Assembly: GCA_913055705.1 (NCBI GenBank)
Contig: CAJXKT010000003.1
Location: 1-46,184 of the forward strand
Source: an uncultured bacterium
Lineage (GTDB): Bacteria; Planctomycetota; Brocadiia; Brocadiales; Scalinduaceae
Direction: 5' to 3'
DNA length: 46,184 nt
Positions 5,214 to 27,814 of the stretch are shown here, one piece after another. Positions within the stretch are counted from its first letter, which is position 1. Each line of letters opens with the position of its first letter. The translations under genes and the position numbers were made by a program. The notes below the pieces were generated by a model that worked only from the letters and a program-made list of their open reading frames with translations, was not told the origin of the DNA and searched no databases.

Positions 5214-7100
5214 TCAAGTAGAAATATCCTTTACCTCAATCTCCACATCTTCTTTATACATCCCATTATAGTCAGACAAGTTATCTGCTTCTTTCCGGTA
5301 AGGCGACCTGAGCGCATAGGCAATAGAACAATTTCCACCGTTTTGTTCCAGAAACTCTATTTTATCCCCCATCCCAAATGCAACTGCCTTGAACGAAACG
5401 TCTCCCTGGCGCACATAGAAACCCAGGTGCTTACCATTAACCCCAAAACGACGTATCTGACCAACAATACTTACATCTCTGGTGGCAAAGACAGGAATAG
5501 GGTTGCCTTCTCCATGAGGCAACAAACATTTTAATTCTTCTAATAAAGATCTTGAAATTGATGACAACTCAACTTCAAGATCTATATTTAACGCTGAAAT
5601 TAAATCTTCTTCTTCCAACTGTCCTTTTGAAATAGTATTAAATACCTTCTTAAACTCTGGAATATCTTTTTCCAATATTCTCAACCCGGCTGCTTGTGAA
5701 TGACCACCGAATGAAATAAGCAACTTCCTGTCTGTGGAAAGTTCCTGACATTTTAGCAACGCATTGTGTAAATGAAAACCAGGGATAGATCTCGCAGAGC
5801 CATGCCCTACTTCACCATCAATCGCAATTATAATGACCGGCCGGTGATGTTTCGCTACCAACCTTGAGGCGACAACCCCTATCACGCCTTGGTGCCAGTT
5901 TTCATCGATTATATCGGATATTATAATTGCCATATCAGAGTTGAAATCTACATCATTTCGTACTTTCTTTTTTGCCGACTCCAGCATATTGCTTTGTATT
6001 TTCTGCCTTTTCTTATTTTCACTTTCTAAATATAAGGCGATCTCCTTTGCTGTATCCTCACACTTTGCAGTCAACATTTCAACACCCTTCTTTGCATTTC
6101 CCATTCTGCCGGCAGCATTGATTCTCGGCCCTAAACAAAATCCTACATGATAAGAATAAATCTTTTTACCATTAAGCCCTGCAACTTCTTTTAATGCCTT
6201 AATTCCCGGATTTTCAGAATGCTGTAGAGAACTAAGTCCATATTTTGCCAATATCCTGTTTTCCTGTTTCAAGGGAACTACATCAGCAATTGTACCTAAT
6301 GCTGCCAATCCCATAGCACTCATAAGAAAATCTTTAAACGTGGGTGCAACCTTCTTATTGCCTGAACCGGCAGACTGGCTATTTCTGTTTGGGGCATTCT
6401 GCCCCAGTGCCCAGGCAAGCATAAAAGCAACCCCAACACCGGAAAGCTCTCTGAATGGATAATTTGAAGTGGCCAGTTTCGGATTAATCAATCCAAAAGC
6501 GCAATTGCAACCACCATGACCCCCTGCCCGTCCGGCCTCCGGTAGTTCGCCACATGGTTCGTGATGATCGGTAATAATGAGATCAATACCTTTCTCCCTG
6601 GCAAATTCAGCCTCCTCAAAAGCATTGACACCACAATCAACAGTAATAATAACCTTTGTACCAGTCTTGCTTATCGTCTCGATCGCCCCTGTGCTTAAAC
6701 CATAACCTTCTTCCAATCTGTCCGGTATGTAATAATCGATTATAGATTCCTGATTCCAATATAATCCGGAAAGAGTCTCCAGGCACTGCACCATCAATGC
6801 AGTTGCGGAAATACCATCTACATCATAATCACCATATACAGTAACTTTTTCACCTTTACTTAACGCATCAATAATCCTTTTGCTCGACTTTTCTATATCA
6901 GGCAACAACATTGGATCGCTAAGTAAAGACAGGTCTGATTGTATAAAGGTCCTGGCAGATTCTATATCGGCAATTCCTCTATTGATTAACAGTTGTGATA
7001 ATACTGGAGAGATACGAAGTGAATTAGAAATCTCCGTCTGAAGATTTATATTCAAAGGTGGGATAATCCATTTCTTTTGGGACAATTCCTGGATGGCCAT
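5214..7100 (-). CDS. recJ: Single-stranded-DNA-specific exonuclease RecJ
   Basis: VYGDYDVDGISATALM, DHHEP, GPRINAAGRMG, SFGGHSQAAGL DHH/DHHA1 motifs. Confidence 0.95.
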   Translation of the reverse strand: MAIQELSQKKWIIPPLNINLQTEISNSLRISPVLSQLLINRGIADIESARTFIQSDLSLLSDPMLLPDIEKSSKRIIDALSKGEKVTVYGDYDVDGISATALMVQCLETLSGLYWNQESIIDYYIPDRLEEGYGLSTGAIETISKTGTKVIITVDCGVNAFEEAEFAREKGIDLIITDHHEPCGELPEAGRAGGHGGCNCAFGLINPKLATSNYPFRELSGVGVAFMLAWALGQNAPNRNSQSAGSGNKKVAPTFKDFLMSAMGLAALGTIADVVPLKQENRILAKYGLSSLQHSENPGIKALKEVAGLNGKKIYSYHVGFCLGPRINAAGRMGNAKKGVEMLTAKCEDTAKEIALYLESENKKRQKIQSNMLESAKKKVRNDVDFNSDMAIIISDIIDENWHQGVIGVVASRLVAKHHRPVIIIAIDGEVGHGSARSIPGFHLHNALLKCQELSTDRKLLISFGGHSQAAGLRILEKDIPEFKKVFNTISKGQLEEEDLISALNIDLEVELSSISRSLLEELKCLLPHGEGNPIPVFATRDVSIVGQIRRFGVNGKHLGFYVRQGDVSFKAVAFGMGDKIEFLEQNGGNCSIAYALRSPYRKEADNLSDYNGMYKEDVEIEVKDIST

Positions 7101-19469: not shown

Positions 19470-19587
19470 TTCAGGAAGAAAAACAACCCTGCCTCAAACC
19501 ACATCTCACCACTTGACACGTTCAAAAGTCCTAAGAACTATAATTTTTTGATTTTTATCTAATCTCCAATCCTCTTGCAAACAGGTT

Positions 19588-19647
19588 TGCCCGCCCGGCA
19601 AGCCGTTCGCCAGCCAGACGTATTCTGGCGGGGACGGGAAGTAGGCC
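19588..19647. repeat. GC-rich palindromic intergenic repeat (copy A)
   Basis: gcccgcccggcaagccgttcgccagccagacgtattctggcggggacggg; internal CGCCAG...CTGGCG hairpin in an otherwise AT-rich intergene. Confidence 0.6.
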
Positions 19648-27670: not shown

Positions 27671-27715
27671 CTTGGATTTTAATAACAGAATGAAATACTT
27701 TCAGACTTAGGGATT

Positions 27716-27782
27716 CCCGCCTGACAGACCTTCCTAACAAACTGGCGCCCGCCCGTGCCGGATCGGACGGGGACAGGCAGGT
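27716..27782. repeat. GC-rich palindromic intergenic repeat (copy B)
   Basis: cccgcctgacagacc...gcgcccgcccgtgccggatcggacggggacaggcaggt; shares cggggac-gg and cccgcctgac blocks with copies A and C. Confidence 0.6.
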
Positions 27783-27814
27783 ATTCAGGTATTAGGGTGT
27801 CAATTCCTCAATTC

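Follow-up and report, generated by a model that had tools for sequence, protein, structure and literature searches.

Descriptions of short palindromic repeats that insert into genes in frame have come chiefly from Rickettsia and from a small number of other groups. The Rickettsia palindromic elements (RPEs), specific to this genus and 105–146 bp long (PMC2229807), form several families whose members lie between genes as well as in frame within conserved genes, where the extra peptides are apparently tolerated (Ogata et al., 2000, 2002, reviewed in PMC2229807 and PMC10969869). Another example is provided by the intragenic REPs, palindromes tagged with GTAG/CGTC that occur in several phyla (Di Nocera et al., 2013, PMC3733652). 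These elements are short (20–40 bp) and mostly intergenic, with several families per genome, and some of them lie in frame in conserved ORFs; the host genes include DNA-repair genes, UvrD-type helicases and RecBCD, and grouped copies code for 20–30 residues (PMC3733652). Intragenic palindromes are, then, a known kind of element; PMC3733652 mentions neither anammox bacteria nor RecJ, and no report of palindromic repeats in Scalindua or other anammox bacteria was found in the open-access literature. Scalindua is a free-living clade of global importance in nitrogen cycling, and many of its relatives have been sequenced; with empty and filled sites available at graded distances, it becomes possible to measure how old such peptides are, what becomes of them and how well they are tolerated.

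The window analysed here, a stretch of DNA of 46,184 nucleotides, derives from a bacterium of the Candidatus Scalindua clade, which comprises marine anammox bacteria, and its relevant features are collected in Table 1. The product of 5214–7100 carries the full RecJ domain set (DHH, DHHA1, and OB) and scores 505.8 bits against TIGR00644 (cut-off 396.9), thus passing the equivalog threshold. Its best-segment identity is 87–88% to the proteins of Scalindua sp. OFTM1 and Planctomycetota bacterium B27T3L11. The assemblies compared are mostly metagenome bins; B27T3L11 is referred to below as G003, OFTM1 (which has two RecJ copies) as G010, S. arabica as G001, and S. rubra as G014. In the OFTM1 bin, two distinct full recJ genes have been found (G010:C72 and G010:C23), each 88–90% identical to recJ of the window, which possibly reflects two merged strains.

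Table 1. Location of recJ, its two loops and the repeats discussed in the text (window coordinates).
Feature	Position	Strand	Description
recJ	5214..7100	minus	628 aa; DHH, DHHA1, and RecJ_OB domains
Loop 2	6357..6398	minus	residues 235–248, NAPNRNSQSAGSGN; hypervariable; occupied by P1 in S. rubra and by P2 in S. arabica
Loop 1, residues beyond those of other families in the order	6501..6533	minus	about G190–C200, GRAGGHGGCNC
16-bp block CCCCTGCCCGTCCGGC	6521..6536	plus	identical to the P4 core; AGRAG(G) when read on the minus strand
Copy A, intergenic repeat of the first-pass annotation	19586..19638	minus	one half P1-type, 21/26 positions
P3, intergenic hairpin-rich repeat	27715..27792	plus	CGTGCCGGATCGGACGGGG, GTGCCGGATCGGACGGGG; also in stretches L073 and L082 of the same genome

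The first-pass annotation had proposed that Gly/Cys-rich residues were inserted into RecJ shortly before the NPKL motif, and the extra residues are indeed there. The minus strand of 6501–6569, within RecJ, reads DHHEPCGELPEAGRAGGHGGCNC, and the protein has 32 residues from the DHH motif to NPKL (DHHEPCGELPEAGRAGGHGGCNCAFGLINPKL), against 20 in the other families of the order (e.g., DHHRPGQEIPNAFAVVNPKL). The word insertion calls for a qualification, given that a long loop 1 (29–63 residues) is present in all 17 RecJ copies of the Scalindua family with a readable loop (from 16 genomes, that of the window included). The sequence of this loop is kept only inside subclades, and no empty loop 1 exists within the family, for which reason the insertion event itself is not visible. 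Since all RecJ proteins of the Scalindua family have the lengthened loop, most of the extra length must be old, and the loop in its entirety is a permissive site of long standing that the family shares, not a recent insert in the genome of the window. A second loop of the protein, located after the AWALGQ helix, has 31–51 residues where it can be delimited, against 22 in the comparison family. The loop 1 position falls in an alignment gap of the RecJ structures 8y30 and 5f54, and an AlphaFold2 model of the window protein (mean pLDDT 75.8) assigns low confidence and no regular structure to loop 1 (residues 183–196, below 50) and loop 2 (residues 240–248); on this model, both loops are predicted to be unstructured. 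A cysteine occurs near the end of loop 1 (window 6501–6515) in nearly all RecJ proteins of the family, in contexts such as GGCNC, SGCDS, SCGCDD, QPCKE, and RPCED; the two longest versions of the loop (G015 and G016) are devoid of it. In S. sediminis, loop 1 of recJ contains a small hairpin, CTTGCCTGGGCAGACAAG (L015:2044-2079).

Part of the loop 1 DNA recurs elsewhere in the genome. A search of this genome with 6470–6590 at an E value of 0.001 returned only the query itself, and the short repeat surfaced only at an E value of 10 with 6340–6590, which gave four exact 16-base matches at other places, all of them to 6521–6536. These other copies sit in hairpins, including CCCCTGCCCGTCCGGCAGGCGAGG and CCCCTGCCCGTCCGGCAGGGGCG, and define a family, P4, with the consensus CCCCTGCCCGTCCGGCAGGCGGGG. 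Allowing at most one mismatch, the 16-mer has been found 53 times in G003, 14 in G010, five in the genome of the window (recJ counted), three each in G001 and G014, and once each in G008 and the outgroup G037; it is absent from the other ten genomes searched, and the reversed pattern gave no occurrence in any genome. Hence, the suggestion of a genome-wide palindromic family represented in recJ holds for GC-rich palindromes and for an exact P4 match, but the repeat-derived part would measure about 16 bp instead of 60. The recJ block agrees with P4 at 16 of 16 positions, which amounts to only 16 of the 24 core bases: the 3′ arm AGGCGGGG is not in recJ, where CTCCGGTA stands at that place (3 of 8 positions matching). 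Nearly all other P4 copies continue with AGGCGGG or a near variant, while the recJ block does not. The loop DNA of recJ folds no better than its shuffles (z = +1.0).

Against a background of 5–7 mismatches, the block shows 0, 0, 1, 2, and 2 mismatches in the five RecJ proteins of one well-supported clade (window genome, G003, both G010 copies, and G001) and 6–9 in all others. The genomes of this clade hold P4, and both the P4 16-mer and the recJ block are absent from the next relatives, G002 and G005. The block is confined to this single clade; the long loop around it extends to all members of the family. A recent insertion private to the genome of the window was considered and ruled out, the block being common to four other RecJ proteins.

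The main competitor of descent from P4 is coincidence. On that view, an unstructured loop rich in Gly, Ala, and Arg would reproduce 16 bases of P4 by accident through its GC-rich codons, having lengthened through ordinary substitutions and small indels, and the translated repeats seen in relatives would be unconnected with it. This explanation, which we regard as unlikely, draws on the partial state of P4 in recJ, on relatives such as clade B and S. rubra, whose loop 1 is long and variable without showing any repeat match, and on the E value of 0.45, which makes one 16-bp hit of a 251-bp query in this genome unremarkable. However, the same 16-mer has four further sites in this genome and dozens in G003. 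Across about 1.03 Mb of coding DNA (three genomes), no match of at least 13 bp to the P4 consensus was found other than the recJ loop, and 500 shuffled consensuses gave in the same DNA a mean of 0.004 matches at 14 bp and none at 16, figures that are post hoc, as P4 was found by searching with the recJ loop itself. Of 44 GC-rich coding blocks prepared from other parts of this genome, 18 were searched and none had a recurring match elsewhere, and on the tree the presence of the block tracks that of P4. De novo k-mer repeat finding in a 446-kb sample of the genome did not pick up P4 because the other copies lie outside that sample, and a phage search with 6440–6620 gave no match. Quite improbable, finally, is that the ancestor of the family acquired a longer loop 1 for a function, for example partner or metal binding through the recurrent cysteine, with the GC-rich stretch as part of it: the loop is long in every member and the cysteine recurs in most, but length and sequence vary widely, the two longest loops are without that residue, the segment is predicted to be unstructured, and a function of the old part would leave the 16-bp repeat match unexplained. 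Altogether, the distribution of P4, the shuffle and GC-block controls, and the confinement of the block to the clade that holds P4 favor descent of 6521–6536 from P4; with only two thirds of P4 in recJ, and with the match itself having led to P4, we rate this descent at about two in three, chance being the main but less likely alternative.

A different origin had been suggested by the resemblance of the recJ segment to copy A. The likeness exists as written, although the two belong to different types: copy A is a P1-type element (CCCGTCCGAACGGCTTGCCGGGCGGG and kin), and the recJ block is of the P4 type. What they have in common is an arm shared by P1 and P4, plus the motif TTCGCCA, which in recJ represents the Gly-Glu codons of GELP; the aligned counterpart of this segment in relatives without the loop is GQEIP. 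The two-block pattern of recJ and 19588 occurs exactly twice in the whole genome and never in the reversed control, but this is weak evidence because the pattern was taken from those same two sites. Evidence independent of that choice comes from the exact recurrence of 6521–6536 at four other sites of the genome. Copy A as a sister of the recJ block was therefore ruled out, being P1-type and sharing, in its TTCGCCA half, nothing other than ordinary GELP codons.

Clearer cases of repeats within genes have been found in the relatives. In S. rubra, which harbors about 40 copies of P1, loop 2 of RecJ is occupied by a P1 copy identical in 33 of 33 bases to an intergenic one. In S. arabica, the same loop contains a 48-bp P2 insertion in frame, and the site is empty in six RecJ relatives. 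Another example is the ValRS of S. rubra, in which 27 bp of P1 (TRPNGLAGR) are inserted in frame at a site that is empty in 14 of 16 relatives; in two distant relatives, a different insert is found at the same spot. In the MiaA of S. arabica, 30 bp of P5 (GAGGCAGATCCGCCGTGGCGGA) lie in frame and are missing from the 88% identical MiaA of the window genome. In a scan of 128 ortholog pairs from three genome samples, only 11 indels reached a length of 6 aa, and the one with the highest GC content was this MiaA repeat. Finally, a UDG-superfamily protein of OFTM1 (G010:C21:47255-48232) carries 25 additional residues in frame, which are composed of P4 and neighboring repeats and are missing from 11 relatives. 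The inserts with empty sites in relatives measure 27, 30, 48, and 75 bp. Further copies, placed by their position in Pfam-recognised ORFs, are found in S. rubra (an AddA-like UvrD protein at two sites, CheA, a CDC48-like ATPase, the C-terminus of a HisA/HisF-type protein, an O-antigen ligase-like protein, and a TPR/glycosyltransferase), in S. arabica (a histidine kinase and archease), and in OFTM1 (a CHAT protein and a histidine-kinase protein). Overall, the in-frame repeats of relatives involve RecJ and about ten other proteins. The two P1 copies of the AddA-like UvrD/PDDEXK ORF (G014:C15:31312-35232) lie about 2.2 kb apart and seem to be in the same frame. Regarding folding, P1 performs well against shuffles (z = −2.9), P4 moderately (z = −0.6, same-GC shuffles), and the P1 copy in the S. 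rubra ValRS no better than shuffles.

The proposal that palindromes can enter genes in frame and leave them open is thus borne out, as far as sequences can tell, in RecJ and ValRS of S. rubra, RecJ and MiaA of S. arabica, and the UDG protein of Scalindua sp. OFTM1. The alignments firmly indicate that short repeats of the Scalindua clade enter conserved genes in frame and stay open, and they are presumably translated. The RecJ loops have been hit twice for certain (P1 and P2) and a third time probably (P4). To account for these observations, we favor, with a probability of roughly 0.65, a combination of permissive unstructured RecJ loops and dispersed hairpins, a piece of P4 having entered loop 1 in a common ancestor. 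REP-like GC-rich hairpins of several families (about 24–55 bp) are dispersed in Scalindua genomes, chiefly between genes, presumably by some transposase or repair process. Occasionally, a hairpin would land in a loose loop or linker, and the gene would survive when the added length is a multiple of three and brings no stop codon. In the common ancestor of the window genome, G003, the G010 copies, and G001, a P4 piece would have entered a loop 1 that was already long, with a near-neutral effect on RecJ; the 16-bp block could be what remained of it after incomplete copying or a subsequent loss of the 3′ arm. After insertion, the hairpin may decay, as suggested by the lost folding excess of the ValRS copy of S. 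rubra. A broader and more tentative extension is that several unrelated hairpin families act as insertion elements of coding DNA, which would repeatedly enter unstructured loops of conserved proteins, with DNA-repair enzymes among the preferred hosts, and supply new surface peptides, RecJ having been hit independently by three of them, loop 1 by P4 and loop 2 by both P1 and P2. The main value of these observations lies in the clade-wide pattern more than in the single loop of recJ, and they offer an explanation for odd GC-rich loops of anammox proteins that could otherwise be mistaken for functional insertions or sequencing errors.

In comparison with known systems, the RecJ of the window resembles other bacterial RecJ proteins (TIGR00644; PDB 8y30, 5f54, and 2zxo) in its DHH, DHHA1, and RecJ_OB domains and conserved motifs, and the Scalindua proteins differ from them in having two additional variable loops, one following the DHH motif and the other the AWALGQ helix. 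With respect to the repeats, the parallel drawn with the Rickettsia elements is valid in that the Scalindua palindromes also comprise several families and occupy intergenic sites as well as in-frame sites in conserved genes. Unlike RPEs, they are far shorter (about 24–55 bp) and GC-rich, and the sequences are unrelated as far as the papers show. The closer resemblance is to the intragenic REPs, with which they share the short length and the many dispersed copies (a P4 core of 24 bp with 53 copies in G003, and P1 of about 27–33 bp with some 40 copies in S. rubra) as well as in-frame copies in conserved ORFs, such as those of ValRS and UDG with empty sites in relatives. On the other hand, the consensuses of P1 and P4 are without the unpaired terminal GTAG/CGTC tag of REPs, the CGTC of P4 being inside the hairpin. 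Therefore, without a terminal tag and much shorter than RPEs, the Scalindua elements are filed in neither family.
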